In this document: piece after piece, positions 7,231 through 60,667 of the stretch | Position numbering within the stretch: position 1 is the first letter of the stretch | How the letters are laid out: the number at the start of each line of letters is the position of its first letter | Assembly: GCA_017466405.1 (NCBI GenBank) | Contig: JAFTUF010000060.1 | Location: forward strand, 1 to 64,000 | From: Bacteroidales bacterium | Lineage (GTDB): Bacteria > Bacteroidota > Bacteroidia > Bacteroidales > F082 | Length of the DNA stretch: 64,000 bases | Direction of reading: 5' to 3' | Translations under genes and position numbers: made by a program | Notes under the pieces: model-generated | Told to the model about the DNA's origin: nothing | The model's database searches: none | What the model saw: the letters and a program-made list of their open reading frames with translations, nothing else

Positions 7231-8469
7231 ATGAAGAATATTAAAATGTCAGAGATAAAAAATATCACCTCTTCGGCTGCTTTTGCCGACACCAAACCTC
7301 ATTATGAATTACTAGACGGACTCCGTGGAGCAGCGGCTCTCATGGTACTTTGGTATCACGTCTTCGAAGGTTTCGCCTTCGCCAAAGGCTCTGTCATAGA
7401 GACCTTCAACCACGGACATCTCGGCGTCGACTTCTTCTTCATGCTCTCGGGTTTTGTTATAAGCTACGCCTATGACGACAGATGGCGTAATCGTTGTAGG
7501 GACGTATCGAATACGTCCAATGTATCGAATACGTCTAATAATTCATTAACCATCTGGAGTTTCTTCAAACGTCGTCTCATTCGCCTGCATCCTATGTTGG
7601 TGATGGGCGCTTTCATCGGCTTGATAACATTCTTGCTTCAAGGTGGCGTGAAATGGGACGGTAGTTCTGTTTCTCTCCACTGGACTATCATAGCTTTCAT
7701 CCTGACATTATTCTTCATCCCCGCTTATCCTGGAGCGAGCTACGACATACGCGGCAACGCTGAGATGTTTCCACTCAACGGACCGAGCTGGTCGCTCTTC
7801 TTTGAATATATCGGCAATATCTTATATGCTATCTTCATCCGCCGTCTCTCGAATAAAATGCTCGCCGCTTTGGTAGGAGTGACAGGAATATTATGGATAT
7901 GGTTCATCGCCTTCGACATCTCGGGCTACGATATGATTGGCATCGGCTGGACATTAGACTACGCCAACTTCTTCGGAGGTTTGTTGAGGATGATGTTTCC
8001 ATTCACACTCGGAATGCTGATGGCACGTATATTTAGTCAACGGTCAACAGTCAACAGACAACAGACATTCTTCTCAAAAAACATTTTTTGGATCTCGATA
8101 ATAATTCTCTTTGCGCTTTTCTCTGTTCCTTATTTCCCAAAGACAAGCAATATCAGCGTCAACGGAATTTATGAATTAGCATGTATCATGTTGGTATTTC
8201 CTTTCATAGTATGGTTTGGCGCTGCCGGCACTACGACAAATGCATTTTCCACCAAAGTATGCAAGTTCCTCGGCGACATCTCATATCCTTTGTATATAGT
8301 GCATTATCCAGTGATGTATCTCTTCTACTCATGGCTTATCAAAAATCAATATTACACACTTGGCGAAACTTGGCCAATGGTAATCCTCGTGATGGCAGTA
8401 AACATCGTTTTAGCATACGCATGTTTGAAGCTTTATGATGAGCCGATAAGAAAGTTTCTGAGTCGCTAA
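7231..8469 (+). CDS. Membrane O-acyltransferase, OafA/YrhL type
   Basis: Acyltransferase family 3 protein, 412 residues, with about ten hydrophobic segments. It probably transfers an acyl group from an inner-membrane donor to a surface glycan or other envelope substrate. The N-terminal signature LDGLRGAAALMVLWYHV contains the family's conserved His, and FFFMLSGFVISYAY follows. Two repeat inserts interrupt it: the Ser/Asn-rich segment DVSNTSNVSNTSNNS (about residues 91-105) comes from a hairpin element, and SQRSTVNRQQTF (about 270-281) from a heptamer tract. Both lie in probable loops. Translation may start at 7231 or at the Met at 7246. The C-terminal FLSR and the stop lie at the start of another word-like repeat. 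Confidence 0.85.
   Translation: MKNIKMSEIKNITSSAAFADTKPHYELLDGLRGAAALMVLWYHVFEGFAFAKGSVIETFNHGHLGVDFFFMLSGFVISYAYDDRWRNRCRDVSNTSNVSNTSNNSLTIWSFFKRRLIRLHPMLVMGAFIGLITFLLQGGVKWDGSSVSLHWTIIAFILTLFFIPAYPGASYDIRGNAEMFPLNGPSWSLFFEYIGNILYAIFIRRLSNKMLAALVGVTGILWIWFIAFDISGYDMIGIGWTLDYANFFGGLLRMMFPFTLGMLMARIFSQRSTVNRQQTFFSKNIFWISIIILFALFSVPYFPKTSNISVNGIYELACIMLVFPFIVWFGAAGTTTNAFSTKVCKFLGDISYPLYIVHYPVMYLFYSWLIKNQYYTLGETWPMVILVMAVNIVLAYACLKLYDEPIRKFLSR
7495..7537. repeat. Family A hairpin element inside the acyltransferase gene
   Basis: TGTAGGGACGTATCGAATACGTC followed by a second half ATGTATCGAATACGTC. The GACGTAT/ATACGTC arms match intergenic elements near 8510 and 40290. It is read in frame as a Ser/Asn-rich loop. 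Confidence 0.8.
8035..8067. repeat. Heptamer tract (GTCAACA)n inside the acyltransferase gene
   Basis: Four to five degenerate copies of GTCAACG/GTCAACA/GACAACA. Encodes QRSTVNRQQT. A one-copy change would shift the frame. Confidence 0.85.
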
Positions 8470-8487
8470 GACATTGAGTCATCGAGA
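8458..8487. repeat. GAGTCGCTAAGACATT word-like tract
   Basis: CTGAGTCGCTAAGACATTGAGTCATCGAG spans the last codons and stop of the acyltransferase gene. It is built from the same words as the tracts at 46689 and 61843. Confidence 0.6.
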
Positions 8488-8505
8488 ACTTAAAAAAAAA
8501 ATCAT

Positions 8506-8530
8506 AGGACGTTTCTATACGTCTCTACAA
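8506..8530. repeat. Family A hairpin element
   Basis: AGGACGTTTCTATACGTCTCTACAA, a short copy of the GACGTAT/ATACGTCTCTACA hairpin family, lies between the convergent acyltransferase and subtilase genes, where it may also end transcription. Confidence 0.7.
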
Positions 8531-8535
8531 TATTC

Positions 8536-11500
8536 TTACTTCAAGATTATTTTTTGAGTCTTGATGCCGTCTGCGTTTATCAATCTGACGACATAGGCAA
8601 CCTTAGCAAATCCGCCAACATCGATTCTTGGATTTTCGCTATTGAGAACGCTATTGTAAATTACACGTCCCATCATATCGATGATTTGAACAGCGCCTTC
8701 AGCATTGACTACAAGATCTTCTCCATATTGATATACGAAATGGCTGTTAGCCGTTGGCTCTTGGCTATTAGATTTAAACTTCACAACGAAACGATTACAA
8801 TCATCGCGACTCGTTGCAGTGAAGTTGTAATCCTCCAAAAGCATATTGGTCTTTTCTCCTGTAAAACGGTCGTGTAAGATCACGCTTTCGAACTCACCTC
8901 TTGTCTCAAGACTAATTGTATAATTACCTATTTCTTTTGCCTCGAAACTGACATCAACTTCTTTAACATCTTCATCGAAGTTATAAACGCCGTAGCGTTT
9001 GTCGTTATTCTCGACATAAATATCAGCGATAGATTTGTTGAAATTATTCATCTTAGGGAATCCTATATCTTCTGCGCCGCCTAAATTTATCACCACGTTA
9101 TCGCTGCCAGCCTTGCCTGTAGCGATAAGATTGATAAACAAATCCTCTGTCTCCATACCTCTCTGAACTTTAGACGTACTATACGACACCATTGGATTCT
9201 CTCTGACAGCCTTCACGAAGAAACCGTCACCTACTTTTATTGTACCTGAAGAATAATAATCATAACCGCCATCTTCATTTACCACAGCATAACCTCCAGC
9301 AATGTTTTCTCTAACGAGCTCATTCCAATTCATATTAAAAGAGAATGGATTGCCGAGCAGATGGAAGTTGGTAATGTCTTTATCAGCACTATAAGTCAGT
9401 TCATATTCGTATGATGCCTCATGGTTAAGAGTTCCCTTAAAAGCGGCCTTCGTTTCGGATTGATATGACGCCATATAAGCAACACCTTGTTGGAAGGCTA
9501 TCGCTTCATTTACATTATTGTCTTTATAGTTTATCCATTCTAAATCCTTACTGCCATCGTATCTATACAAATCATAATCGGATTCTACAGGAGTAAAATC
9601 ATCGATTGTGGCACCTTTGACAGGTGAACTTATAAACTGCCAGCCTGTTATATTTTCATAACTCCACTCGCTTGGATTGATAATGTTCATATTGAACGTA
9701 GCAGACACGTCGTCATTGTTTTGGAACACCTGAGCGCCGTCGTTGATGATAAACGCTTCTATATCGGTGTTTATAAAATCGTTGTTAACAGTAAGAGTAA
9801 CGTCGCTGTTGAGTGTCAGCGATTTTCCCTTATTTATCTTCAAAGAATTTACTTCGATGTCGCCGCTTGATATTGTAGCATTAGCATTAATGATAATTTG
9901 TTCATCGCTGGTGTTAGGAAGTCTCTTAATAGCCCAGTTGTTTGCATTCGACCAATCTCCATCGGCAATAAACATATTTACATTCTTACTGACATTATTT
10001 GACCACTCAATTCTTGATTCGCTGTTGCTTTCCGTAAAAATGCTTACATTATCAACACCTGAACAATAACCATATCCAGCGACATTTACAAATGCTATAT
10101 AGAATTTTTGATTTACGTAACTGCTTAAATCGACCTCTGCTTCTGCCCAGTCTGAGACATCTGTTTTATTGCTTGACCAGACTTCAGTCCATGGTCCTGT
10201 ATATGAATTTGTACTTACCATAACTTTCAATGTGTTGACATCTGAACCCCAAGCTGGAGTTATGTATCTAAACGACATCTTCATCGTATTGTCGTTGCGC
10301 TGAGTAAGATCTATCTGACGCGACACCAAATAAGTCAAATAATTTGCATTATTATATAAAGATTTTATGAAAGCTGATTGTCCGTCATACGAGTCGTAAG
10401 TATTGATAGATTTAAAACTTTCAGCAAGAGTCCACGTATAATTACCATTAACATTATAGTAATACCAATACGCGTTCATTACTTCATATATAGTAGTATT
10501 ATTCGTCAGATAAATATTCTCAAAGTTTTCTTCGTAAATCACTTCTTTCTTGGCGTATGCATTAGCAACACCATATTGATAAATTCCGTTTTGCAACAAG
10601 TTCCATGTGTTGTCGGTGTAAGTGCTGCCGTTTACTTCAGATGCAATCTTTGTCTCATCTCCCGAAATATAGTCTTTTCTGTAGATGTTAGATGCTTTGC
10701 TGCCATTGGCATTAATCCATGATATATTAACATTATTGTTGTTAATAGTTGCCGTCACATTTGTAGGCGAAGGACTTTCTGGGTTGTCGATAGTCTGAGC
10801 TCTAACGATTTTAGAATGCTCTGATTCCAATTCATTGCGTTTTGATGTTATGGTATAATTGTATAATGTTCCGTATTCCAAGTTTTCGTCTAAATAAGTA
10901 GTTGAAGTAACGTTTGCAACTAAGGTTTCATCACGGTAGATATTATAACTTGTTGCGTTATTAGTTTCTTCCCATGAAAGCCTTACTGAAGTTCCTTCCA
11001 CTTGCGCTGTGATATTTGTTGGAGGAACGAGTTCGTTGGAAATGGTTACTTCAACATTGAAAGCCTTTCCGTTTATTGTTATTGTAATTGGAGCAATGTG
11101 TTGATCTGGTGTGTTACTATTTACAGACATATTGAGATTAACTGTTGTTGTCTGTCCCGAAGTTAATCCGTTATATGTTGCAGTCGCGTTGTTGACTGTG
11201 ATATTTCCGTCTGTTGTAGAAATTGAAACGTTTCCAGAGCCCATTCCGTTACCGTTGTTTATCAAAGTGACGCTGAAGTTTGTATTTTGTTTCGCGTTTA
11301 TCGTCTCTGGGAATGAATATAAATTCACATTGGCGTCGTCAGTGTTAAACTCAGTATATTGTACAGCTGCGAGAGCGTCAACGCAACCAGAGCCATAGTC
11401 GTTGCTTTTTTTATCGGTGAGTTTTGTTGCTGTATTTTCTAATATTCTACATATTTCTGCTGGGGTGAGGTCAGGATTTTTTTCGAGCATAAGAGCCACG

Positions 11501-12822: not shown

Positions 12823-12896
12823 ATAACTTTATAAGTTTATAATAATGCTAATTATCTAAAACGATTGAAAATCAATTCATATCTATACAAAATATA

Positions 12897-12942
12897 AATA
12901 AAAAAAGATGTATCAATAGGTTTGTAAAGATACATCTTTTAT
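12897..12942 (-). terminator. Rho-independent terminator after the macroglobulin gene
   Basis: On the minus strand AAAAGATGTATC pairs with GATACATCTTTT around a 14-nt loop and is followed by a run of T. It lies 40-90 bp after the macroglobulin stop codon. Confidence 0.75.
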
Positions 12943-12983
12943 AAAAGCGATAATATTTTTTTCTAAAAATTTAATCAAAACAA

Positions 12984-15900: not shown

Positions 15901-18734
15901 CTGTCTTCTTCCTTTATCTTATATGAAAATTTCAGAACTTTGTCACTTAACGTCTTACGTTCATAATAACGAACTTCATCGCCATGTTTTATCATGACAT
16001 AAACGTTGACATCTTTGGCAGAACTTCCTAAATAAAAATTAACATCTTCGCCAGGCTGCACTGACTCTTTGTCAGAATAAGAAATACACATTGTATCACA
16101 CGGTATCTCATCACTTTCTAAGTCAATGATTGTCAGCTTAACAGAAGTCTTTATCTTTTCATTATCAGCAGAAATAAGTTCAACTAAAAATCTGCCATTA
16201 TTCACAAAATTTTTAACATTTGGAAATAACGGACAACTGCCATTGACATCAATTATATCCTCATAAATTATTTCGACAGAACAAAGTCTGTTGACTGTTG
16301 ACTGTTGACTGTTGTCATTTATTCTATAAATTTTTCTTATCAACTTAGCTTCAACGGGATTTTCTTTAAGATTTTTAACATTAAATGTTATCAAATCTAA
16401 ACTATCTTTGGAAACGACTTCACTCCTATTATTAATATCAATAATCAAGTCGATGTCGGAGGCTTTTAATGTATATGTCTTTGATTGCGTCTCGCCTTGA
16501 GCATTAGTAACATCGACAGTCACAATATATTCATAAACAGGTAATTCACCTTTATCTTTTTTATCAGGAATAAGATTAAAACTTATATTGAAGTTTCCTT
16601 TTTCATCTGTCGTTCCATCACCGAAAGCGATTTGTTTTTCATTATCGCTATAGTCTGCAAACCACCAGAAACGATATGGAAAATAAGCGCGACGAACGAC
16701 TGTATATTTATAATTAACATTATCGAGACCGAATCCAGCATATGCTTTTACTGAACCCGACAATTCAACTTCCTCATTGAGTTTAAATGACTTATCAGGA
16801 TTATCAAAAGTAACTTCAAAAGTCGGACGTTTATATTCTTCCACTTTAAAAGCCAGACTTCCGCTCTCGTTCGTTATCTGGAAATATCCGTTTGAAACAT
16901 TATTCGGGATAATGAAACTTCCATCAAAAGAACCGAATTCATTTGTCGTAAAAGTCTGTGAAGCAACATCTTGAAAATTAGAATCTTTAAAAACGACTGT
17001 CGTTTCTTTTCCTACGAGCAATTCCTTCATTTGTGAATTTTCATTAAGAATTACACCTTTATAATATACAGTCTGCCCCGGACGATAAATCGTTCTGTCT
17101 GTAAAAAAGAAGGTTCTTTCTCTTAATTTCTCTTCACCTTTTTCATGATAATTATAAAAATACGTACTTCTATCAGAAAGGAGTTTATCATCACCTTTGA
17201 AAAGATTGACATTGAATGAACTTGTCTTTATATCTGGTATTAAGGCAGTTCCGTTCTTGTCGGTAGTCAAATCCGCTAAAGTTCTATCTACGTATTTTCT
17301 TTTATCGTAATCGTAAGTTTTATCAAAAATATTAACATTTACATTCCTTATAGGTTTACCGCTATCTCTATCAAGGACATATATCACGAAATCGTCATTT
17401 TCCTTTGTCGTGACAAAACTTAAATTACTTACCTGGAAAAGATGTATCGCAGGAAGTTCATTATCTTTCTTAGAAAACTTATCATCTTTTGAAAACACGA
17501 TGAAATAAGTTCCGCAATCTAATTTAGGCAAAGAAATAGAAATCTCATGTTCTTGATAATCTTTCTTATCTAAAATTTCAATATGATTTTCAACTATCAG
17601 TTCTTTTTTATAAAGTTCTCTTACAAGTTCACTTCCACATTTTTTATTAAGCTTCTCCAAATCATTCTGCGACACCTTATATATTCTATAATGAGGATTC
17701 GTCAGATTTCTGTAAGTCAATTTTGCCGTAATATCTTTATTCGGAAGTTGCACATTCTGCATCGTCAATGACAATTCTTTTTGTAAAATTTCAGAACGTA
17801 TTGATTCACATTGTTTCGCACCTTTGCTTTCTGGAAATAATTTGATTGCTCCATCGCAGATTGAAAGAATTTTAGCTATTGAACTTTGGTTATTGGCTAT
17901 TGGCTGTTGACTCAAAATTGCTTCCGCTTGCAATGCCATCACCGATGTCACCAACGGATTATTAATAATATTATTCTTAATATTTTCTAAGGAATTGAAA
18001 TAGGTTTCAAAGTCGTCTGAGTTATTATATTCATATTTTAATTTTTGAATCTCGTTATAAATGGCGGCATCCTCGTAATTGTTTTTCTTATCAAAATCAA
18101 TGAGATCTTGGTATAAATCAGTGATACGCAGCAATGATATATTATTAATTTTTGCAGGTATCATTGATACGTCTCTACTATATGAATTTTCTTTATAATT
18201 AACAATTTTATGAATAACATAATCGTAAAGCGTAGGTTCGATATTGAAATCAATATCTGCCATTTTATCGTAAATTGTTAAAATATCTTTGTAAGATTCC
18301 GTTGTGTTTTTTTGTAAAGATTCCACATCGGAGAGAGCGTTTTCCAAAAACTCTATGAACGAAGTCTGTTGTCTGTTGCCTGTTGTCTGTTGACAATCTT
18401 CATAGAGAGAAGCTATGGCGAGATTAAAAATTGCTCTTTCAGGTTCTTGTAGGCGAGATATATTTTCTTCTGCAAACTGTATCGAGGCTTCTACAGCATC
18501 GTCGTCTTCCAAATAAAAAATCTTGAAACGATAGAGGAAGGTTTTCAGCAATTCTTTCTGGTTGTTCTCTTTTACGGCTTTTTGTTCGAGTTCGTCTAAA
18601 ATTGTAGCCGCTGATTTAGGAAGATTATTTTCTAAATTTTCATTAAGACTTTTCCACAAATCGTTGTCTGATTGTGCTTTGACATTTGACAAGATAGACA
18701 AAGCAATTATTATTAATAAAAATTTGGTCTTCAT
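12984..18734 (-). CDS. Alpha-2-macroglobulin family protein lacking the thioester motif
   Basis: Giant periplasmic or surface protein (1916 residues from Met at 18734). Bacterial alpha-2-macroglobulins trap proteases and are thought to protect the envelope. A signal peptide ends at VKAQ. The N-terminal 330 residues are helical; then come MG domains with DRTIYRPGQTVYYKGV and VEEYKRPTFEVTF, the A2M signature NFNETAFFYPNL...FTMPDALTRWNLMMLAYT, and an alpha-alpha barrel-like region. Where homologues carry the thioester CxEQ (after SLPYL), this protein reads SQEIGESADVAFN before YANSLASYIA (about residues 1380-1405), so covalent trapping is not expected. Three heptamer tracts encode QQST-like inserts. 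The start at 18734 is preferred to 18779: it gives a clean signal peptide and lies 22 bp after a -7 box (18756-18763). Confidence 0.9.
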   Translation of the reverse strand: MKTKFLLIIIALSILSNVKAQSDNDLWKSLNENLENNLPKSAATILDELEQKAVKENNQKELLKTFLYRFKIFYLEDDDAVEASIQFAEENISRLQEPERAIFNLAIASLYEDCQQTTGNRQQTSFIEFLENALSDVESLQKNTTESYKDILTIYDKMADIDFNIEPTLYDYVIHKIVNYKENSYSRDVSMIPAKINNISLLRITDLYQDLIDFDKKNNYEDAAIYNEIQKLKYEYNNSDDFETYFNSLENIKNNIINNPLVTSVMALQAEAILSQQPIANNQSSIAKILSICDGAIKLFPESKGAKQCESIRSEILQKELSLTMQNVQLPNKDITAKLTYRNLTNPHYRIYKVSQNDLEKLNKKCGSELVRELYKKELIVENHIEILDKKDYQEHEISISLPKLDCGTYFIVFSKDDKFSKKDNELPAIHLFQVSNLSFVTTKENDDFVIYVLDRDSGKPIRNVNVNIFDKTYDYDKRKYVDRTLADLTTDKNGTALIPDIKTSSFNVNLFKGDDKLLSDRSTYFYNYHEKGEEKLRERTFFFTDRTIYRPGQTVYYKGVILNENSQMKELLVGKETTVVFKDSNFQDVASQTFTTNEFGSFDGSFIIPNNVSNGYFQITNESGSLAFKVEEYKRPTFEVTFDNPDKSFKLNEEVELSGSVKAYAGFGLDNVNYKYTVVRRAYFPYRFWWFADYSDNEKQIAFGDGTTDEKGNFNISFNLIPDKKDKGELPVYEYIVTVDVTNAQGETQSKTYTLKASDIDLIIDINNRSEVVSKDSLDLITFNVKNLKENPVEAKLIRKIYRINDNSQQSTVNRLCSVEIIYEDIIDVNGSCPLFPNVKNFVNNGRFLVELISADNEKIKTSVKLTIIDLESDEIPCDTMCISYSDKESVQPGEDVNFYLGSSAKDVNVYVMIKHGDEVRYYERKTLSDKVLKFSYKIKEEDRGRISFQAFFVKNNTINIEQQDVFVPYDNLKLDIRLDVERDDLLPASHEKWNLTIKNFKDEGVVANLLAGMYDASLDVFAKNSWFFPVEPNIMLSAEPRYDNSFDNFFCAANNQSFRNYSLFAYNLMSDMTLTPFVGSRRNSVITARQLMSMSAHDIDAISASVGGVEMEYSVYRIADSKENIAAKAKLNIEEFVSKDIENQEPVLRENFNETAFFYPNLITNDDGSLTFSFTMPDALTRWNLMMLAYTKDLKTGTLNKTFTTSKPLMIMSDMPRFCYENDTLWMVANVIKTTDNGQQSTDFDQLSKLIAKLEIFDALTMQPLDLILSDKEINIDEIPAGESRAVRWKVAIGKGVAAHVQTNLLAFRFSVNAENFSDAEQHLLPILSDEVFMTETYPMTVKANSEEKYNFDFNNENERNQGLTLNFCANPKWYAIQSLPYLSQEIGESADVAFNIFYANSLASYIAHNTPNLLNYIKKWQIESPDELMSQLQKDENLKAIMLEETPWVLEAKSEAEQKSRLANLFDVNAMSYKTTEALNLISEKQSVNGGWSWFPNMPESSFITQNILSGFGKLHKMNVINALDLEQQSIVNNICDKAIKYLTNEIIEAYNDIKYKGKFHSSPNTINELYALSFFDFGGNEKFDEAKEFFLSQLQKDWQKFDFGMQAKIALVLHRNGNDETAQLIMQSLRERARQKEDVGMYWSSDVKEQTIIMEALREISPDEQLLEEATIWLLCNKRCNMWENAATTVDAIYELMIGEYQLSSVSIQNNSVIIQASDNNATDNIFIQKNWNADEMSDFKDLTIENKTDNLVWGGLFRQYFVSIDEVRKHESPLNVERELFVERNNENGSYLVPIKETELKVGDKVVVNLTIESIQDMEFVFLKDLRAACLEPTQQMSRYNYSDGMYYYQSNSDTFMGFYFDRLPKGKHCVSYSMFVTKEGNFSNGYALIQCMYSPEFSAYSEGMRLEVSK
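15001..15030. repeat. Heptamer tract in the macroglobulin gene
   Basis: Four degenerate copies of TGTTGAC/TGTTGTC/CGTTGTC. Encodes the in-frame insert DNGQQST. Confidence 0.85.
16286..16317. repeat. Heptamer tract in the macroglobulin gene
   Basis: Perfect run of three TGTTGAC heptamers followed by TGTTGTC. Encodes NDNSQQSTVNR. It is the cleanest heptamer array in the window and so the best candidate for slippage. Confidence 0.9.
17881..17913. repeat. Word-like tract TTGGCTATTGGCTGT in the macroglobulin gene
   Basis: Tandem TTGGTTA/TTGGCTA/TTGGCTG heptamers. Encodes QQPIANNQSS. A similar tract at 8741-8770 lies in the 3' part of the neighbouring subtilase gene. Confidence 0.7.
18161..18180. 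repeat. Half of a family A element in the macroglobulin gene
   Basis: TCATTGATACGTCTCTACTA matches the right arm of the intergenic hairpin elements. It is read in frame (SRDVSM). An imperfect ATGATA inverted partner lies about 25 bp upstream. Confidence 0.75.
18364..18394. repeat. Heptamer tract in the macroglobulin gene
   Basis: Four to five copies of TGTTGTC/TGTTGCC/TGTTGAC. Encodes CQQTTGNRQQTS. Confidence 0.85.
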
Positions 18735-21324: not shown

Positions 21325-21383
21325 TGAGACGTGTCAATTACATTCTTGTTTATTTTTCATTGGTGTAATCGACGCGTCTCTAC
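21325..21383. repeat. Family A hairpin element (59 bp, ATTACA arms)
   Basis: GAGACGTGTCAATTACA and TGTAATCGACGCGTCTCTACA flank a T-rich loop (TTCTTGTTTATTTTTCATTGG). It lies between the DPP7 start and the end of the next peptidase gene. Confidence 0.88.
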
Positions 21384-21389
21384 AAATTT

Positions 21390-25886: not shown

Positions 25887-25938
25887 TTGTAGAGACGTAT
25901 CAATGATTCCTAAAAACAAACACACATTGATACGTCTG
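25887..25938. repeat. Family A hairpin element (CAATG arms)
   Basis: TGTAGAGACGTATCAATG pairs with CATTGATACGTCTGA around an A-rich loop. It is flanked on both sides by AAAATTGAAAGTTGAAA-type tracts and lies between pcrB and DPP IV. Confidence 0.88.
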
Positions 25939-25990
25939 AAAAATTGAAAATTGAAACATTAAAAATCGAAACAATTAAAATTATTATACT

Positions 25991-31413: not shown

Positions 31414-32385
31414 TCAGATTTCAAATTCCAAAATCTCCTCTATAGTCAAACCTGTGACTTCTGCTATAAATTCTAGACTCGTCCCTGACGACCTAAGATT
31501 TGCGACTATATTTCTTATGGTTTCTTCCCGTCCTTTCTTCATACCTTCTGCCAGACCTTCTTCTCGACCCTTCTTTATCCCTTTCTTGATTCCTTTCTCT
31601 AAACCTTCTCGCATACCTTCTTTTCTTCCCATTGCTCTGCCTTCAAGCATGCCTTCACCACGAGATGTGTAAATGTTATCTTTCAATATCACTGTGTTAT
31701 CCAAATGACGATAATACGCCGACAACTCATCCTTGCTCATCAACGCCAACTCCAATTTCTTACGAGCTTCATTAAGTCCTGGAGCTGTTGAGTCTTGTGT
31801 TATGTCGCCAGTACCGAGATAATATATCCATTCCTCTAAAGGAGTCTGCGGCTCACCTTTGAAATCGTTCACTTTCAAAATGTAATATTCGGGATACAAC
31901 TCACTGACGACATCGACATTGAACTTCTGACGTTGAAACGGACTTAGATTCAAGACCTCACCAGTGTTGACTCCCAAGAACTCTGTCTTGCCATGATACA
32001 GATAATCCTTGCCTTGACCTAAATCGAAATAAACAATATTGACACTGTATATCTTCTTGATATTCTGATAGCCTTCTCCTCTATTAATATATTCAGTAAC
32101 CAATTTAGAGACACCAAACAACATCCTCTGAAAATAAGCGTACTCATCATTATTCTGCACCTCGATGATAAACAACTCGCCCTTACTATTCTCAGCAAGA
32201 ATATCGACTCTGTTGTATTTGTCGAACTCGTCTTCCTGATTGCTCTCGCTTTCCAGAAGTCTGTTGATAGAAATTTTCTCTTTGAATAAAGTTGTCAGAA
32301 GACCTTCCAACACTGCGTAATTGGCTTTATCGCGTAGCATACGCTTCATAGCCCAATCGAATCTTATGTATTTTTCTGTTTTCAT
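31414..32385 (-). CDS. Rpn-family PD-(D/E)XK nuclease (putative transposase-type)
   Basis: Member of the Rpn/PDDEXK_2 family, annotated as recombination-promoting nuclease or putative transposase. It begins YIRFDWAMKRMLRDKANYAVLEGLL, the family's usual start. The nuclease core follows: NRVDILAENSKGELFIIEVQNND, with the Asp and the ExQ pair as catalytic residues (about 57-76). The C-terminal third is a Gly-Arg-Lys-Glu repeat (GRKEGMREGLEKGIKKG) predicted to be helical, and common in the family. Standing alone with its own -7 box (32411-32418), it may be a domesticated mobile nuclease. Biological role unclear. Confidence 0.85.
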   Translation of the reverse strand: MKTEKYIRFDWAMKRMLRDKANYAVLEGLLTTLFKEKISINRLLESESNQEDEFDKYNRVDILAENSKGELFIIEVQNNDEYAYFQRMLFGVSKLVTEYINRGEGYQNIKKIYSVNIVYFDLGQGKDYLYHGKTEFLGVNTGEVLNLSPFQRQKFNVDVVSELYPEYYILKVNDFKGEPQTPLEEWIYYLGTGDITQDSTAPGLNEARKKLELALMSKDELSAYYRHLDNTVILKDNIYTSRGEGMLEGRAMGRKEGMREGLEKGIKKGIKKGREEGLAEGMKKGREETIRNIVANLRSSGTSLEFIAEVTGLTIEEILEFEI

Positions 32386-32453: not shown

Positions 32454-32473
32454 TATTTTTTTGCATCGTTCTG

Positions 32474-32532
32474 GTAGAGATGTATCAACAACAACTATAA
32501 AAATTAACAAGATGTAATTGAAGCGTCTCATT
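32474..32532. repeat. Hybrid family A element with unmatched arms
   Basis: Left arm GTAGAGATGTATCAACAACA is of the CAACAACA type; right arm TGTAATTGAAGCGTCTC is of the CAATTACA type. The GAGAYG ends still pair, but the inner arm does not. The loop resembles the reverse complement of those in other elements. Confidence 0.75.
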
Positions 32533-32717: not shown

Positions 32718-35294
32718 ATGAAAAAATTTTTACTGCTATTATTTACTGCGATAGTATTATGTAACTTCGCTTATTCTCAAAGTTTTAATGTCATAGAACC
32801 AGAACTACAAGAAGTCTTGAATCAAGAGGGTGACGAGTTGATTAAGGTCAATATCATTCTCAAAGATGAGATGGATGCTACTCAGCTGAAGTCGCTCTTA
32901 ACGAACACAAACGACAAAAAAGAAAGACGCGATGTCGTTGTCAGAGAATTAAAGGCTTTCTCTGAGAAGTCACAAAACGACCTTATGAGTATTCTAAAGA
33001 GCGGGAACGGGAACGGGAGAGTTTCGGATATCAAATCGCATTGGTTGTCTAATAGTATCAACTGTCGTCTCTCAAAAGAGATGATTTATCTCGTGGCAGA
33101 TCATAAAGACGTCGCTATCATTGGCCTCGACATCGACAAGAAACTCGTCTGGAGCGAGAATCCTCAGAAAGTCGCAGCGACTAAAGGCATGACAGAGAAT
33201 ATCACTCATGTCAACGCTGATGATGTTTGGGCTGAAGGTTATACCGGTGAAGGCGTCGTTGTCGCTGTTTTAGATTCGGGTGTCAACTATAACCACGTCG
33301 ATCTCGCCGACCATCTCTGGGACGGAGGTGCCGAGTTCCCTAACCACGGATATAACTGCTACGACGGCAACAACGAGACCATGGACTATTATATGCACGG
33401 AACACACTGCGCTGGCACCATCTGCGGCGACGGCACTTCTGGAACAAAGACTGGTATAGCACCCGACGCTACTCTTATGATTGTCAAGATTCTCGACAAC
33501 TGGGGCAACGGCAGCGCTAACAACATCGTCGATGGCATCGAGTTCGCCACCGAACATCAAGCCGATGTGATGAGTCTCTCCTTAGGCATAGCATCTGCTT
33601 CTATATCAGAGAAAGCCATGATGCGTCAGACCTGCGTCAACGCTCTCGAAGCAGGTATCATAGCTGCCGTCGCTGTCGGCAATGAAGGCAACCAGCAATA
33701 TTATTTCCCTGTGCCTAACAACGTTAGAACTCCTGGTAGCTGTCCTCCACCATGGATTCATCCTGACCAACAGTCCAACAGCGGTGGTCTCTCTTGTGTG
33801 GTAGCAGTAGGAGCCGTCGATTATAACAACGCTTACGCTAACTTCTCATCTATAGGACCTTCCACATGGCAAGGCACCTCGTACAACGACTATCATTTCG
33901 TAGGTAAGATCGGTCTCATCCGTCCTGACGTGGTGGCTCCTGGTGTAGGCATCACATCCCTCGACTACAGCACCACCGACGGTTTCATGACGTTGGACGG
34001 CACCTCACAGGCGACACCATGCGTTGCCGGCGTGATGTGTCTGCTGCTTGAAAAGAACCCTTATCTCACGCCGGCTGAAATAAGCATGGCATTAGAGACA
34101 ACGAGCATAAGTCTCTCCGACACAAAGAGCAACCAATTCGGTTCGGGCTGCGTCGATGCACTCGCAGCGATAGAAAGTATCAACGAAGGCACGCCTTTCC
34201 CTGTAATCGACTTCGTATCATGTTCAACAGAATCGATGCCTGCTAACGAAGACGTCACAATAACAATAACATTACAAAACAACGGATACGTCGCTACGAC
34301 AGGTAACACCAACGTCAATATCACCAGCAACGACCAATATATCAACATCATCGACGGCAGTGCTTCTTATCCTGTGATGAACGTAGGTTCAACCGCCACA
34401 GGAACTTTCGTGATACGCGCCGACGAAAACACTCCTCATAACAGAGACATAAACTTCAACCTCACAGCAAGTAATGGCGGCGATACATGGAACGCTACCT
34501 TTTCGATAAAAGTCATCAACAACTGCTCGAAACCTAACAACTTAGAGACAGAGACAATAGACGAAAATACCATAGAACTTACATGGAACACTTCATACAC
34601 TGCAATTAGTTACAAAGTCTATAGAGACGATGAACTTATAGCAGAAGTAAGCGAGAACTCATATACCGACACAGGCTTAAATCCAGGAACAGAATATTGC
34701 TACACAGTGAGAAGCGTCTGCGAAATAGGAACGTCACAGGCATCAGCAGAGTCATGCGCCACGACACTCGAAGCGATAATACCTTGCGAAGCTCCAAATA
34801 ACATCACCGCCGATGTAAAACAAGATGCCGCCGACTTCGAGCATCTCTTCAAGATAACACTCGAATGGGAGGCGGTGGAAGAAGCCGATTCATATAACAT
34901 CTATCTCAACGAAGAAAAAATCGGTAATACTGATGAGACTTCTTTCGTCTTGGGTTATGATAATGAAGAGACTATCACTTTAACAATATCATCATCATGC
35001 GGAGAGCAAGAATCGTCACTATCTAACGACATCGTCTTGAATCTTATCGACGACGCCATCATCGAAAATAACATCTCACTCGAGATACATCCTATTCCTG
35101 CCGACGATAAAATATTTATCACTTCAAGTGATGTTATCAAGCAGATAAGCATTTTCAATATAACTGGCGTAATGATTTACGAAAGCGAAGACAATACCGA
35201 AGAGATTGATATTTCAGGATTTAACAACGGAATTTATTTCATCAAGATAAATACAGATAAAGGAAATATTACTAAGAAAGTTATTAAAGAATAA
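32718..35294 (+). CDS. Secreted S8 subtilase with T9SS sorting domain (tandem copy 1)
   Basis: Extracellular serine endopeptidase, 858 residues. Signal peptide to about residue 20 (AYSQ), then the propeptide beginning VIEPELQEVLNQEGDE. Triad: Asp186 (AVLDSGVNYNHVD), His227 (MHGTHCAG), Ser430 (GTSQATP). It has the CPPPWIHPDQ segment (342-351) shared by all three subtilases here. Two FN3-like modules (about 610-770) with YKVYRDDELIAEV and YNIYLNEEKIGN precede the T9SS domain (IHPIPADDKIF...ITKKVIKE). A short SGNGNGR insert (95-101) is encoded by a GGGAAC hexamer run (33002-33020). The next gene is a closely related paralogue 98 bp downstream, consistent with tandem duplication. Confidence 0.92.
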   Translation: MKKFLLLLFTAIVLCNFAYSQSFNVIEPELQEVLNQEGDELIKVNIILKDEMDATQLKSLLTNTNDKKERRDVVVRELKAFSEKSQNDLMSILKSGNGNGRVSDIKSHWLSNSINCRLSKEMIYLVADHKDVAIIGLDIDKKLVWSENPQKVAATKGMTENITHVNADDVWAEGYTGEGVVVAVLDSGVNYNHVDLADHLWDGGAEFPNHGYNCYDGNNETMDYYMHGTHCAGTICGDGTSGTKTGIAPDATLMIVKILDNWGNGSANNIVDGIEFATEHQADVMSLSLGIASASISEKAMMRQTCVNALEAGIIAAVAVGNEGNQQYYFPVPNNVRTPGSCPPPWIHPDQQSNSGGLSCVVAVGAVDYNNAYANFSSIGPSTWQGTSYNDYHFVGKIGLIRPDVVAPGVGITSLDYSTTDGFMTLDGTSQATPCVAGVMCLLLEKNPYLTPAEISMALETTSISLSDTKSNQFGSGCVDALAAIESINEGTPFPVIDFVSCSTESMPANEDVTITITLQNNGYVATTGNTNVNITSNDQYINIIDGSASYPVMNVGSTATGTFVIRADENTPHNRDINFNLTASNGGDTWNATFSIKVINNCSKPNNLETETIDENTIELTWNTSYTAISYKVYRDDELIAEVSENSYTDTGLNPGTEYCYTVRSVCEIGTSQASAESCATTLEAIIPCEAPNNITADVKQDAADFEHLFKITLEWEAVEEADSYNIYLNEEKIGNTDETSFVLGYDNEETITLTISSSCGEQESSLSNDIVLNLIDDAIIENNISLEIHPIPADDKIFITSSDVIKQISIFNITGVMIYESEDNTEEIDISGFNNGIYFIKINTDKGNITKKVIKE

Positions 35295-35297
35295 AAA

Positions 35298-35380
35298 TTA
35301 AATCTGAGAATCTGAAAACTTAAAAACTTGAAAAAGATGTTAAGTAGCTCAGTTTTTCAGTTTCTCAGTTTTTCAAATTT
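35298..35380. repeat. CTGAGAATCTGAAAACTT word-like tract
   Basis: Variants of CTGAGAATCTGAAAAC, followed by their near-complement CTCAGTTTTTCAGTTTCTCAG, fill the spacer between the tandem subtilases and can fold into an imperfect hairpin. The words match those in the coding repeats at 2338-2589 and 52674-52737. Confidence 0.7.
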
Positions 35381-38916: not shown

Positions 38917-38970
38917 GAGAGACGCATCAATGTGTATTTATTTGCACAAAACATTGATACGTCTCTACAA
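38917..38970. repeat. Family A hairpin element (CAATGT arms)
   Basis: GAGAGACGCATCAATGT pairs with ACATTGATACGTCTCTAC around a 19-nt loop. It lies between sdaA and thpR. Confidence 0.88.
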
Positions 38971-40279: not shown

Positions 40280-40306
40280 CAGGACGTATGCAATACGTCC
40301 CCACAA
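40280..40306. repeat. Family A short hairpin
   Basis: GGACGTATGCAATACGTCC is a compact hairpin of the same GACGTAT/ATACGTC type, followed by CCACAA. It lies just after the OstA-like gene stop and may terminate that operon. Confidence 0.8.
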
Positions 40307-41803: not shown

Positions 41804-41823
41804 TCCTAATCGTTAATTTTTTT

Positions 41824-41879
41824 GAGACACTGCAATTACATATTGTTTATTTTCATAGGTGTAATTGATACGTCTCTAC
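41824..41879. repeat. Family A hairpin element (ATTACA arms)
   Basis: GAGACACTGCAATTACA pairs with TGTAATTGATACGTCTC; the loop reads TATTGTTTATTTTCATAGG. It lies inside the amidase-MCE-OstA gene set, between the MCE and OstA-like genes. Confidence 0.9.
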
Positions 41880-41883
41880 GATT

Positions 41884-46689: not shown

Positions 46690-46748
46690 GAGTCACCAAG
46701 TCTCCGAGTCACCGAGTCACCAAGTCTCCGAGTCTATGAGTCAATAAG
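46689..46748. repeat. GAGTCACCAAGTCTCC word-like tract
   Basis: About six degenerate octamer-like words (GAGTCACC, AAGTCTCC, GAGTCTAT) follow the lptD stop. Similar tracts occur at 8458 and 61843. Confidence 0.8.
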
Positions 46749-46749
46749 T

Positions 46750-46804
46750 GGAGAAGCGTCAATTACACCAATAAAAATAAATAATATGTAATTGACACAT
46801 CTGA
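46750..46804. repeat. Family A hairpin element (ATTACA arms, opposite orientation)
   Basis: GAGAAGCGTCAATTACA pairs with TGTAATTGACACATCTGA; the loop is the reverse complement of that at 41824-41879. Confidence 0.88.
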
Positions 46805-52271: not shown

Positions 52272-53330
<1,059 letters not shown>

Positions 53331-53427: not shown

Positions 53428-53484
53428 TGATTTTTTTCAATTGTAATACATTATTTTAAAATAAATTTTTAATTCCTACACTTC

Positions 53485-55914: not shown

Positions 55915-55935
55915 AAGTTTTGATTAAAATTTATA

Positions 55936-55958
55936 AAATTGTGAATTATGCATTATGA
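55936..55958. repeat. AT-rich word-like tract (AATTATGCATTATGAAC)
   Basis: Short copy of the tract at 3123-3188, at the 3' end of the sensor kinase gene, supplying its stop codon region. Confidence 0.6.
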
Positions 55959-57482
55959 ACTTTTCTTCATGCTCACTCTGAACGTCGTTCCTTGTCCCAC
56001 GATAGACGATTTTACGAATATCTTTCCTTTATGATAATCTTCTATGATGCGTCGTGCTAATGAGAGACCAAGTCCCCAGCCGCGTTTCTTGCTCGTATAA
56101 CCAGGCTTGAAGATTTCTTTATAAGCTGAACGCTGCATTCCTTTGCCGGTATCTGTCACATCGATATAAACGTTCTCGGCGTCTTCAGTCATCTCGACGG
56201 TCAGGTCGCCGTGGTCTTCCATAGCGTCGAGGGCATTTTTAGTGAGATTCTCCAACACCCAGCTGAACAGAGCAGCGTCTAATGGTATGACAATCTCGCG
56301 ATTCGGAATCTTGATGTCGAAGTTGAATTTGTTGTTGGCGAAACGACGTTTGAGATAATTCATAGTGTCGTTGACGGCAGCCACCACGTCGTGAGGTTCT
56401 AAGGTTGGGATGGAACCGATCTTAGAGAAACGCTCTGTGATGGTCTTCATCCTGTCGATGTCTTTCTCCATCTCCGTTGTCCCGATGAAAGGAGTGTCTT
56501 GTAACTTAAGGAGTTCTATCCAACCCATGAGCGAGGTGAGCGGCGTTCCAATCTGATGAGCTGTCTCTTTCGCCATGCCAGCCCACACCTGATTCTGCTC
56601 CGAACGACGTGCGTAACTGAAGAGAAGATAAGCGACGATGATGAAGAAGGTGAAGACGAAAATCTGCACTATAGGGAAGTAACTGACGATACGAAGAAGG
56701 TCGGAGCTGCGATAATAGATGTAAGCTTTCTCGCCATCTAAGTAATTCACTTCTATAGGCATATTCTCGTCACTCATTATCTCGAGCTGTCGTTCTACAT
56801 AATCGCTGTTGTTCATCATAGAAGCGTCGAGGTTGCCAAAACTGAGAATCTCTCTTTGCGACTGGTCGAGGATGATGACAGGGACGCCGGCGGCGTTGTC
56901 GGCTACATCGCTAATGAAGAAGTTGAACATATCGTCGAGGACGTTACGGAGTTCCGTATAAATAAGCGATTCGTTGTAATAGAGATAAGATTCTTTTCCG
57001 TAAATATCAATCTTTATCGGAGGATAAATGCTGAAGTCTTCTTGCATATCAGCGTCGAAGAACTCTTTACCCTGATGCTTCTTCGGAAGGTTGATGGAGA
57101 GCGTGATGTTGTTGTCGCTATCCGTTATGATGACAGGAATGCTGATATTACTTTGTATGATTTCCAGATAAACGCTAGTGTTTTCGTTCGACGATGCTGC
57201 CAGAAAACGACGATACGCCATAGCAAGAAGCTCCACTCTCTTACTTTCCTGCGCACTTACCTCATTAAAAAACAGCTCTGTATAATTCATCAACTCCGCA
57301 TGATTCTGAACTGCCTCAGCCCACATCGTCATCTGTCGCTGCTCCTGAGCCGCGAACCTCTTCACGAGATTGTTGGTATAATACATCGAGAGACTGACAA
57401 TCACGACAGCGATAATGGAAAGGGCTATCTTCCACCTTTTCTTCCTAGCATATAAGTCAACGTTTATTTTCTTGCCTGACAT
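55953..57482 (-). CDS. Sensor histidine kinase
   Basis: Inner-membrane two-component sensor, 509 residues. Two membrane segments (about 17-38 and 262-284) flank a periplasmic sensor region. The H box GMAKETAHQIGTPLTSLMGW (phospho-acceptor His about residue 310) and the ATPase boxes NLTKNALDAMEDHG, DTGKGM and FKPGYTSKKRGWGLGLSLARRI are intact. No response regulator lies next to it, so the partner is probably elsewhere. The helicase gene follows 38 bp downstream and may be cotranscribed. Confidence 0.92.
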   Translation of the reverse strand: MSGKKINVDLYARKKRWKIALSIIAVVIVSLSMYYTNNLVKRFAAQEQRQMTMWAEAVQNHAELMNYTELFFNEVSAQESKRVELLAMAYRRFLAASSNENTSVYLEIIQSNISIPVIITDSDNNITLSINLPKKHQGKEFFDADMQEDFSIYPPIKIDIYGKESYLYYNESLIYTELRNVLDDMFNFFISDVADNAAGVPVIILDQSQREILSFGNLDASMMNNSDYVERQLEIMSDENMPIEVNYLDGEKAYIYYRSSDLLRIVSYFPIVQIFVFTFFIIVAYLLFSYARRSEQNQVWAGMAKETAHQIGTPLTSLMGWIELLKLQDTPFIGTTEMEKDIDRMKTITERFSKIGSIPTLEPHDVVAAVNDTMNYLKRRFANNKFNFDIKIPNREIVIPLDAALFSWVLENLTKNALDAMEDHGDLTVEMTEDAENVYIDVTDTGKGMQRSAYKEIFKPGYTSKKRGWGLGLSLARRIIEDYHKGKIFVKSSIVGQGTTFRVSMKKSS

Positions 57483-57508
57483 AAAATTCTATTCTTCTTA
57501 TTATTAAT

Positions 57509-57565
57509 GAGACGCAGCAACAACATATTGTTTATTTTCTTCGGTGTTGTTGATACGTCTCTACA
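57509..57565. repeat. Family A hairpin element (CAACAACA arms)
   Basis: GAGACGCAGCAACAACA pairs with TGTTGTTGATACGTCTCTACA; the loop is TATTGTTTATTTTCTTCGG, nearly identical to the loop at 41824. The arm differs from other copies on both sides together. It lies between divergent genes. Confidence 0.9.
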
Positions 57566-57662
57566 TTGTTACCTTTCTGCAAACTTACGAAAAAAATAAT
57601 GATTATATATTTAAAAAAAACGTAATTTTACAAACTATTATTGTAACATAAATATTCAAACT

Positions 57663-59966
57663 ATGAAATATGTATTAGCTTTATTTTTAAGTGCTTGCTT
57701 AGCTTTATCATCATACGCTAAGTCAGATGAAGTAGGTCAGAATGTAGATGTGAAACATTATGAGATTCATCTCAACGAAATCAATATCTCTGAGAGAACT
57801 CTCGACGCCACTACCATAGTGACTCTCACCTCTCTCGCATCTCTCGACAAGATAGAATTAGAACTCAAAAGCCTTAACGTCACTGCCGTCACAGCAGACA
57901 ACGCTGCTGTGGAAAGTTTCTCTCAAGACGGCGACATACTCACGATAAACCTTACATCTCCACTAGCAGAGAACTCGACAGTATCTTTCACAATAGATTA
58001 CAGCGGAAGTACTTTCAACGAAAGTTGGGGAGGAATACACTGGAGCAACGACTACGTCTATAACCTCGGCGTCGGCTTCGACAGTCAGCCTCATAATCTT
58101 GGAAAGACATGGTTCCCTTGCGTAGATAACTTCACCGATAAAGCTTCTTACGATTTGTTCATCACTTATCCTGAAGATATGCTTTCATCATGCGGCGGAC
58201 TTCTCGAAGAGACAAAAAACAACAACGACGGAACAAAAACCGACCACTGGGTTATGAGTCAAGAGATTGCTACATATCTCATCTCTTTCGCTATCGGCGA
58301 TTTCGTTTTGTGGGAAGACACTTACCAAGGCATCGAACGCGACATTCCAATCAACGTCTATGCTAAGTCGAATCAGATAGATAAGGTGGCGACGACATTC
58401 GCTAACACTAAAGCCTTCGCCGCTTTCTTCGAAAGTCAGTTCGGACCTTATCCTTTCAACAGAATATCTTACGTCAGCACTGGTCTCGGCTGCATGGAAC
58501 ACGTCGATAACATAGCTCTCTCTAGTTCTTTGATAACAGGAACTACAAATATGAACAGCGACTTCTTCATCTCACACGAGATGTCACACTCATGGTTCGG
58601 TAATAAAGTAACTTGCGCTACCGCTGCCGATATGTGGCTCAACGAAGGCTTCGCTACTTTCTGTAACAACTACTATTTCACAGAGTTCTACGGCGACGAC
58701 TTCTATTACGATGTTATGGACGAACTCATCGACGACATCATCATGTCGTGCCATACCAAAGAAGGCTGGCTTCCTCTGAACGAACTTCCTCTAGACATCA
58801 CTTACGGAACGATGGCATACGACAAAGGCGCTGTCGTGGCTCACAGTTTGATGAACTATCTCGGAAGAGAGACTTTCAGCGACGCTATGAAATATTATCT
58901 CAACAAGTTCAACGCTAAATCCGCATCGTCGGAAGATTTATGCGAGGCATTGTCGGAAGCGACAGGTTTGAATATGAACGACTTCTTCGAAGCTTGGGTT
59001 TATAATCCAGGAAGTCCTGTATATTACGTCCAATATTTCACAGTGGAACCTAATGGCGATAAATACGATGTTCAAGTTAATATGATTCAAGATCATAGAG
59101 GAGCAGATTATATTGGCAACGGAGCTCGTTTTGAGATAAGCTTCATCGATGAAGACTGGAATATGCATAGCGAGATGGTAAGCTGGGATGGCAAGTCTGG
59201 TACAATAACAAAGACATTAGACTTTGAACCTGTTGCAATATTCTGCGACGTAAACAATAAATTTGCTGATGCCTCTCACGAAGAGACTTTCGTCATTAAA
59301 CAAAATGGCAGCAAGGACTTTAGCGCTGCTAAATTCAAGGCTATAGTGGAAGAAGTCAGCGACTCTACATTGCTGCGTATAGAACATCGCTGGGTGGGAC
59401 CTACTACCGTCGGCGAGATACCAGAAGGACTGACGATATCATCGGATCGTTATTGGACAATACATCGTCTCGATAAAGGCGAGTCTAAGATAAAAGGCGA
59501 GTTCCAATATCAAGACGCTGTAAACTACGAAGAAAATCTTATCGTCTCTCCAAACGACTCTATAGTTCTTTTATATCGTCCTGACGGCTCGCAACAGTGG
59601 CGTTCAATAGATTACGTCTTCCAAGGTCTGAGCAACTACGGAAGAATGACACTCGACGATGTAATGAGCGGCGACTATGTACTTGGAATGTGGGACGAAG
59701 AACACGCTTCAATAATAGAGACAGAATCAGATTCTAACATCAATATTTATCCTAATCCTGCAGAAGGGAAGATTAATATTGAATTGAAAAACGACATCAA
59801 AGGAAAAGTCACCATCTGTAATCAGTTAGGACAAATTGTTAGAGAAATGAAAATCAACGATAAAAACATGACGATATATTTTGACGGATTAACATCAGGA
59901 ATTTATACCGTCAATGTTATGAATAGAAAGAATATCGTTTATAGCGAGAAGGTCGTTGTGAAATAA
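57663..59966 (+). CDS. Secreted M1 aminopeptidase with T9SS sorting domain
   Basis: Gluzincin aminopeptidase, 767 residues. The signal peptide ends at about residue 20 (SSYAK). The zinc site is HEMSH (305-309) with Glu328 in MWLNEGFATF (HExxHx18E). The exopeptidase motif is GCMEH (about 278-282). After the catalytic part and a linker, the last 75 residues (INIYPNPAEGKINIEL...VYSEKVVVK) form a T9SS domain. The enzyme is likely surface-exposed or secreted and removes N-terminal residues from peptides made by the endopeptidases encoded nearby. Confidence 0.93.
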   Translation: MKYVLALFLSACLALSSYAKSDEVGQNVDVKHYEIHLNEINISERTLDATTIVTLTSLASLDKIELELKSLNVTAVTADNAAVESFSQDGDILTINLTSPLAENSTVSFTIDYSGSTFNESWGGIHWSNDYVYNLGVGFDSQPHNLGKTWFPCVDNFTDKASYDLFITYPEDMLSSCGGLLEETKNNNDGTKTDHWVMSQEIATYLISFAIGDFVLWEDTYQGIERDIPINVYAKSNQIDKVATTFANTKAFAAFFESQFGPYPFNRISYVSTGLGCMEHVDNIALSSSLITGTTNMNSDFFISHEMSHSWFGNKVTCATAADMWLNEGFATFCNNYYFTEFYGDDFYYDVMDELIDDIIMSCHTKEGWLPLNELPLDITYGTMAYDKGAVVAHSLMNYLGRETFSDAMKYYLNKFNAKSASSEDLCEALSEATGLNMNDFFEAWVYNPGSPVYYVQYFTVEPNGDKYDVQVNMIQDHRGADYIGNGARFEISFIDEDWNMHSEMVSWDGKSGTITKTLDFEPVAIFCDVNNKFADASHEETFVIKQNGSKDFSAAKFKAIVEEVSDSTLLRIEHRWVGPTTVGEIPEGLTISSDRYWTIHRLDKGESKIKGEFQYQDAVNYEENLIVSPNDSIVLLYRPDGSQQWRSIDYVFQGLSNYGRMTLDDVMSGDYVLGMWDEEHASIIETESDSNINIYPNPAEGKINIELKNDIKGKVTICNQLGQIVREMKINDKNMTIYFDGLTSGIYTVNVMNRKNIVYSEKVVVK

Positions 59967-59986
59967 GAGATGTATCTCATAAAAAA

Positions 59987-60018
59987 ACAGGATTCCGTTC
60001 GGAACCCTGTTTTTTTTA
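59987..60018. terminator. Bidirectional terminator
   Basis: ACAGG-TTCC pairs with GGAA-CCTGT around GTTC with one A/C mismatch, flanked by an A run on the left and T run on the right. It serves the convergent M1 and rplY genes. Confidence 0.85.
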
Positions 60019-60032
60019 TAAACATCAAAAGA

Positions 60033-60605
60033 TTATTCTTCTGTTTCTTCTTCAGTTACAGCTGATTTCTTAGCTTTAACGTCGCAAACGATGTTGTTAG
60101 CTGCTACCAATGGGGTTACGTTTTCGATGTTGATGTCTTTAACTCTGATAGCTTGGTTGACGTTCAATTCTGAGATGTTAACCATAACGATAGCTGGGAG
60201 GTCTTTAATCAAACCTTTAACTTTAAGGCGAGGGATTCTCACTTTAAGTTTACCACCGCGCATAACGCCTGGTGATGTACCTTCTGTACGGACAGGAAGA
60301 GTAACTGTGATAGGTTTTTCTTCTGTTACTTCCAAGAAGTCAGCGTGGAGAACTTCGTCGCTGATTGGGTGATATTGTACGTCTTGGAGGATTGTGCGAT
60401 AGACTTGACCATCGATTGTGAAGTCGATGATGTATGTTTCAGGTGTGAAGAGGATAGTTTTGAAGCTCTTTTCCTCTGTGTAGAAACGTACTTCTCTACC
60501 GTTACCGTAAATGATACAAGGAACTAAACCTTGTGCACGCAATTTTTTAGCATCTTTTTTCCCTACGTTCTCGCGAAGAGAACCGCTCAATGATACTGAA
60601 TTCAT
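60033..60605 (-). CDS. rplY: 50S ribosomal protein L25, Ctc-type
   Basis: Binds 5S rRNA. N-terminal L25 fold (LSGSLRENVGKKDAKKLRAQGLVPCIIYG) with C-terminal TL5-like domain (EVTEEKPITVTLPVRTEGTSPGVMRGGKLKV...). Length 190 matches the long Ctc form. The acidic tail ends in EETEE. It follows prs on the same strand, the classical prs-rplY order, with a short family A hairpin between them. Confidence 0.94.
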   Translation of the reverse strand: MNSVSLSGSLRENVGKKDAKKLRAQGLVPCIIYGNGREVRFYTEEKSFKTILFTPETYIIDFTIDGQVYRTILQDVQYHPISDEVLHADFLEVTEEKPITVTLPVRTEGTSPGVMRGGKLKVRIPRLKVKGLIKDLPAIVMVNISELNVNQAIRVKDINIENVTPLVAANNIVCDVKAKKSAVTEEETEE

Positions 60606-60643
60606 AATTTAATTTTTAAAAAACTGTTAATAATTTATTTAAG

Positions 60644-60667
60644 TGGGCGTATTCGATACGCCCGTAC
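60644..60667. repeat. Family A short hairpin between prs and rplY
   Basis: GGGCGTATTCGATACGCCC is an 8-bp stem with a 3-nt loop, then GTACA. The type is GGGCGTAT/ATACGCCC. Confidence 0.75.

Follow-up and report, generated by a model that had tools for sequence, protein, structure and literature searches.

The window analysed here, a stretch of 64,000 nucleotides from a Bacteroidales genome (2.43 Mb in 69 contigs, 95% complete), carries dispersed hairpins set between and within its genes, which include genes for acyltransferase, alpha-2-macroglobulin-like, serine dehydratase, MlaD-like and OstA-like proteins (Table 1). A preliminary description had counted at least 12 elements of one family. 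Twelve hairpins are indeed present, though of two kinds. Eight long copies are recovered at E <= 1.4e-7 by a covariance model, R1, which was built from 14 copies, six of them window copies, with those at 25888 and 38918 absent from the model. The other four, found by direct scan, are 24-25 nt long with a foot and a stem of GGACG, GAGACG or GGGCG. Because they score weakly or not at all with R1 (E 0.14 for 8459-8529 and 0.27 for 7495) and resemble a second and related type of REP, the original twelve are better read as eight plus four. Two copies, one of each kind, lie inside genes (18122 and, in the acyltransferase frame, 7495). The two outer-arm motifs have 16 and 18 matches in the window, more than in any shuffle (means 4.27 and 5.72), and in DNA folding six of the twelve hairpins (z from -1.96 to -6.72 over all twelve) do better than all 200 shuffles, the other six being equalled by one to eight shuffles and the weakest, at 32473, by eight of the 200.

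Table 1. Hairpins of the window, with position, strand and the evidence for each
Feature	Position	Strand	Detail
Short REP, second kind, in acyltransferase frame	7495..7518	+	direct scan, fold
Short REP-like hairpin, degenerate	8505..8529	-	direct scan, fold
Long REP copy inside alpha-2-macroglobulin-like gene	18122..18179	-	arms CAATGATA/TATCATTG; R1 77.3 bits
Long REP copy, CGT/ACA class	21325..21384	-	R1 65 bits
REP copy, shorter inner stem (CAATG../..CATTG)	25888..25939	+	R1 42.1 bits
Long REP copy, arms of two types CAACAACA/TGTAATTG	32473..32530	+	R1 71 bits
REP copy, shorter inner stem, 3' of serine dehydratase stop	38918..38969	-	R1 39.2 bits
Short REP after OstA-like gene's stop	40281..40305	-	direct scan, junction comparison, fold
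Long REP copy, 3' of MlaD-like gene stop	41823..41880	-	arms CAATTACA/TGTAATTG; R1 81.1 bits
Long REP copy, GTGG foot	46747..46804	+	R1 68.4 bits
Long REP copy	57508..57565	-	inner arms CAACAACA/TGTTGTTG; R1 84.5 bits, E 2.9e-19
Short REP, GTAC foot	60645..60668	-	direct scan, fold

Other features share this stretch with the hairpins. A gene for a PD-(D/E)XK family transposase (31414-32385) adjoins the copy at 32473. A second dispersed repeat, whose GTTGACTGTTGTC/GACAACAGTCAAC units face either way, occurs at 1530, 8035, 14993, 16279, 18357, 23043 and 32425, and the alpha-2-macroglobulin-like gene has a string resembling it within its coding frame. Modules of 8 nt (CTGAGAAT, CTCAGCAA, GAGTCACC) are repeated at 2329-2822, 35301-35334, 52643-52737 and 46690-46745, both within a gene and between genes.

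Structure and pairing of the long hairpins

The long copy is a two-storey hairpin of 52-60 nt. Read from the GTAG end, its first half consists of the foot, GAGACG, three bases, an 8-nt inner arm and a conserved, A-rich loop with a sequence like CC..AAAATAAACAATA, after which come the other inner arm, three bases and CGTCTC. GAGACG and CGTCTC form an outer stem of 6 bp, above which lie a conserved 3x3 mismatch region and an inner stem of 8 bp and free sequence, giving at least 14 pairs in two storeys. In each of the eight long copies of the window a single end bears GTAG or GTGG. Their ends are asymmetric; a MITE with terminal inverted repeats is marked by symmetric ends together with target-site duplication. 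For a larger set, 218 candidates were collected from own-genome stretches by a head motif (at most four mismatches, with foot letters 1, 2 and 4 fixed by the selection) together with a tail; 172 of them have at least five of the six outer pairs, the long form accounting for 122, and the inner arms played no part in selecting this set. The loop measures 15-21 nt in 116 of the 122 copies. Their middle shows two linked mismatch states, TAT/CTG in 45 and CGT/ACA in 26, so the 3' outer arm that had been described as shared, GATACGTCTC, does not characterise them: it is rare, and most long copies carry a mismatch there.

The joint change of the inner arms, also part of the preliminary description, is borne out by these 122 copies. 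Within one copy the arms form 7.34 of 8 possible pairs, against 6.35 when partners are shuffled (maximum 6.56 in 2000 shuffles), and when each of the 47 distinct arm combinations is counted once the figures are 6.47 against 5.39 (maximum 5.87). Inner pair 5, for instance, is T-A in 62 copies, A-T in 20, G-C in 17 and C-G in 10. What the inner stem keeps is its pairing and not its sequence. The copy at 32473 goes against the rule, its arms CAACAACA/TGTAATTG pairing poorly. Statistical significance of the covariation, in a home-made test in the manner of R-scape (APC-corrected G statistic, with changes redistributed on the tree of copies), extends to part of the stem: the four highest of 666 places all belong to stem pairs, and two of the 17 stem pairs fall below E 0.05, with values of 0 and 0.033 on a tree of the whole element and of 0 and 0.017 on a tree of the loop only, while the remaining 15 do not pass. 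A run with 40 simulations instead of 60 let one pair pass. Nine further genomes combine this foot and loop with other paired stems (one to nine copies each, only copies with at least six of eight inner pairs being kept, a rule under which G063 gave none).

Paired changes would likewise be produced, with no selection on structure, by templated correction of imperfect palindromes, in which one arm is copied from the other during replication, and the changes alone cannot separate this process from selection. Arm copying should, however, erase the middle mismatches, and these persist beside perfect stems in the two states and numbers given above; across species, moreover, loop and foot are the same while stems vary. 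We therefore regard templated correction as an unlikely source of the co-change.

Copies in the genome and at gene junctions

The hairpins extend throughout the genome: R1 has at least 148 matches at E <= 0.01, a lower bound because 150 of 3995 candidates were scored, and a pattern search gives 186 matches against seven for the reversed pattern. Among 99 genomes of the genus, 11 are positive for R1, each with 43 to at least 56 matches, and 88 have no match at E <= 1e-4. At family level the positives are the same in number, 11 of 173 genomes, all belonging to one genus of 16. G060 has no R1 match, yet it yields 4405 first-look candidates, as many as positive genomes, along with a match of 129 bits to the RAYT (REP-associated tyrosine transposase) profile, and it may hold a diverged REP family.

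In the window's genome, 154 of 172 copies lie outside called ORFs and 18 inside (ORFs being called by length only), some of the latter, such as that at 34249 in the window, probably being chance matches. The intergenic copies favour the ends of genes: 104 of the 154 follow the stop of the gene on their GTAG side, 57 of these within 30 nt and 27 within 10, and at 37 the GTAG-side gene runs the opposite way, so that the copy faces its start, four within 30 nt. REPINs are inverted REP pairs, and this architecture is rejected here, with copies less than 150 bp apart forming direct repeats in 18 of 21 pairs.

Comparison with relatives shows that copies vary between species at the same gene junctions. 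None of the 15 rows from relatives shows the copy that stands here, at 38918, between the serine dehydratase and LigT genes; in five of these rows, all from genomes without long REPs, the comparison covered 150 nt of a longer spacer, and one had no detectable downstream gene. At the MlaD/OstA junction, copies of other types occur in two of ten rows and none in eight. In G047 (L288) the junction after the OstA-like gene holds the hairpin ACGCATCAATG..CATTGATGCG with a long run of T behind it, perhaps a REP that has decayed and become a terminator; modules similar to AGTCTATA fill several of the compared junctions in relatives. Within the alpha-2-macroglobulin-like protein the reading frame runs on through the copy at 18122-18179, and two relatives (G067 and a second, taken as G062 from the order of the output) show gaps of 11 and 14 residues at this site. 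To judge from the alignment it is an in-frame insertion, probable rather than proven given that this region of the protein is variable.

The position of most copies after stop codons, over half of them within 30 nt, might suggest host RNA elements at transcript 3' ends, stabilisers or terminators selected by the host with mobility a secondary matter, and the stems would form in RNA too. However, only 19 of the 122 copies (15 on the other strand) show at least five T among the 8 nt 3' of the hairpin, so that as a class the hairpins do not qualify as intrinsic terminators. The same junctions lack a copy in most relatives and RAYT genes are located among the copies, which makes this explanation very improbable.

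RAYT genes and the origin of the copies

Weak hits to Pfam Y1_Tnp, below the cut-off, sit between family copies in relatives. The corresponding long-type RAYT proteins have about 180-195 aa and the motifs MPNH[VI]H, W..RF.D.IIR and YI.NN. Five of the 11 positive genomes (G053, G062, G063, G070, G072) have an intact RAYT gene among copies of the same family, the arrangement of a REPtron; G047 has a partial gene at a contig end, and in G067 the gene is split over two frames. These loci favour the one among several options of the preliminary description that saw REP/BIME elements mobilised by a RAYT, although the enzyme sought in the window's own genome did not turn up: that genome is one of four positive ones (G000, G009, G027, G040) in which the RAYT profile search found no gene, its best match having E 0.09. 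The gene may have been lost, leaving the copies orphaned, or may be hidden in an assembly gap, as several contigs begin close to a copy.

An NCBIfam scan of two long-type proteins returned REP_Tyr_transpos (NF047646) as the sole family, with E 2e-10 and 1e-10 and scores of 40.6 and 41.6 bits, below the cut-off of 80; Pfam PF01797 gives at most 19 bits on long-type genes against a cut-off of 23. These cut-offs are naming thresholds, and the usual Pfam one misses these RAYTs. A profile of 30 RAYT proteins compared with the PDB finds TnpArep 4er8 first (E 3.7e-7, over 41 residues), and H82, H84, W146 and Y167, corresponding to HuH, W and the putative catalytic Y, are invariant among the 30. One RAYT of G053 has an identical counterpart in a MAG of Bacteroidales from the colon of dairy cattle and another of 98% identity in a MAG from yak cecum, so that the window probably comes from a Bacteroidales of the ruminant gut.

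With 67 of the 99 genus genomes matching the profile at E <= 1e-6, RAYTs as such also occur outside the clade with long REPs. In genus genomes that lack long REPs, an automatic rule assigned a short hairpin in the flank to each of the 22 RAYT frames extracted (L166-L190), e.g. GTAGAGACGTGCCATGGCGCGTCTC, and many short REPs of sister RAYTs have a foot at both ends. A hairpin label is available for 61 of 82 RAYT-like frames, a few labels being spurious. A quick tree built from 57 of these 82 proteins groups the seven RAYTs with long REPs and two with short ones into a clade of nine (SH-aLRT 96), on which the long/short label needs two changes, some labels having been set by hand from flank listings (L143 and L145 to long, L152 kept long; L178, L138 and L144 to short, L250 and L254 kept short; L202, L208, L247 and L255 to none); the long REP may nonetheless have had a single origin. 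Other RAYT types in G047 are accompanied by other short REPs, GTAGGGACGCATCGAATGCGTCC at L142, which the four short REPs of the window resemble, and GTAGAGACGTACGGACGTACGTCT at L154. At L146 (1002-2265) and L157 (779-1983) the hairpins around the RAYT gene form a three-type composite, which is also present with no gene inside it, in the manner of a gene-less derivative; the RAYT stop codon lies in, or overlaps, a GTAG copy.

With no RAYT found in its own genome and two Y1_Tnp genes above the cut-off (L001, L002), the window's family might instead owe its mobility to these IS200-like transposases. Their ends carry other hairpins, as do those of similar genes in G053 and G047; R1 finds three weak matches in 26 Y1 loci (best E 0.0036); and G027 and G040, with 76 and 72 long-REP copies, have no Y1_Tnp match at E <= 10. 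Such a mover can hardly be the right one. The composite hairpins at L001 (1370-2070) and L002 (1440-2380), GCGCTGTAGGCGCG and CGTCCCTACGGGACT, are in part repeated without a gene. The tRNA-like option raised at the outset, or any other Rfam RNA, is rejected, the window's Rfam listing consisting of two tRNAs that both lie elsewhere, and an exact 20-base pattern has no match in viral contigs, which argues against phage carriage of that pattern only.

The reading that we prefer, with a probability of roughly 0.87, is that the hairpins are a GTAG-type REP family copied in trans by a RAYT (TnpAREP). Copy number, the one-sided foot, paired arm change, flanking RAYT genes and the differences between junctions support it; against it stand the four positive genomes with no RAYT found, the scores of long-type proteins below the Pfam and NCBIfam cut-offs and the 15 stem pairs that fail the covariation test; in addition, two RAYTs of the long-REP clade carry short REPs, and close copies are mostly direct repeats, whereas REPs usually stand in inverted pairs. 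The hairpins would be small non-autonomous DNA elements whose folded single strand is recognised by the RAYT, an HUH Y1 nuclease, which would cut and move the long REP. The enzyme may read the foot, the mismatch and the A-rich loop, the inner stem acting as a spacer of free sequence. If the window's genome has lost its RAYT, or hides the gene in an assembly gap, its orphan copies could descend from at least two RAYT lineages, represented by the TAT/CTG and CGT/ACA classes, and some copies just after stop codons may secondarily affect mRNA ends. More tentatively, and at short of an even chance, one RAYT clade may have expanded a REP palindrome of about 25-29 nt into the bipartite hairpin of 52-60 nt, recognition shifting to foot, mismatch and large A-rich loop and so freeing the stem, whose variants, arising in each genome by paired changes, would serve as heritable labels of distinct copying lineages and outlive the enzyme where a genome has lost it.

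Relation to known REP systems

Like REPINs, the long REPs would form RAYT-dependent populations of short repeats within one genome; REPINs are inverted pairs, whereas the long REPs are single or in direct tandem. With the E. coli REPs (TnpAREP subclass 2.2), as presented in the parts of PMC8266576 drawn on here, they share the GTAG foot, the imperfect palindrome and a conserved stem mismatch, and the RAYT proteins are similar to the E. coli-type TnpAREP structure 4er8; E. coli REPs measure 29-37 nt, as opposed to 52-60 nt and a large A-rich loop here. In E. coli, according to the same passages, GTAG and the mismatch in the stem are important in cleavage of the folded single strand (PMC8266576), roles that by analogy may carry over to the long REP.

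The GTAG REPs catalogued by Di Nocera et al. in 2013 are likewise high in copy number, with GTAG at one end, lie on the 3' sides of genes with GTAG near or in stop codons, and are in some cases intragenic (passages of PMC3733652). Their published size, 20-40 bp with stems of 6-13 bp, is exceeded by the 52-60 nt and at least 14 pairs seen here, but this range is descriptive and not defining, so that the long hairpins count as a variant of the GTAG REP; where the catalogue lists the phyla that harbour GTAG repeats, Bacteroidetes are not mentioned (PMC3733652). Compensatory change in REPs is not new, as selection for complementary changes had already been inferred for Stenotrophomonas in 2010 (PMC2817692, in part).

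Among the closest known systems is also TnpAREP subclass 2.4, which the relevant passages of a 2018 survey place in Bacteroidetes and Cyanobacteria and equate with Bertels RAYT group 4, with NH[IFV]H, WQ and YIxNNP motifs, proteins about 190 aa in length, REPs that are long or have two feet, and REP insertions that preserve the reading frame (PMC6006769). Host phylum, NH[IFV]H and WQ motifs, protein length, long REPs, the double-foot REPs of sister RAYTs and the probable in-frame insert agree with what is described here; the tyrosine motif differs, being mostly YIxNNV or YIxNNI in place of YIxNNP. The search rule, as those passages state it, requires the basal stem to be fully paired over 7-20 nt and, in short hairpins, the loop to measure 2-5 nt (PMC6006769). 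A basal stem of 6 bp below a 3x3 mismatch and an 8-bp stem, with a loop of mostly 15-21 nt, falls outside it, and published rules would probably miss these long REPs. Among the open-licence papers listed for RAYTs in Bacteroidetes, none visibly describes the family.

A single genus of uncultured Bacteroidales offers a graded series from short REPs beside sister RAYTs to long bipartite REPs that go with one clade of RAYTs; the intact, broken and undetected RAYTs of 11 related genomes make the co-evolution of RAYT and REP, and the fate of REPs once the enzyme has gone, testable. What is known is most likely the kind, a GTAG-type REP; what is new is the bipartite stem with a loop of mostly 15-21 nt, outside the published REP search rules examined, and the combination of a free stem sequence with a conserved foot, mismatch and loop.
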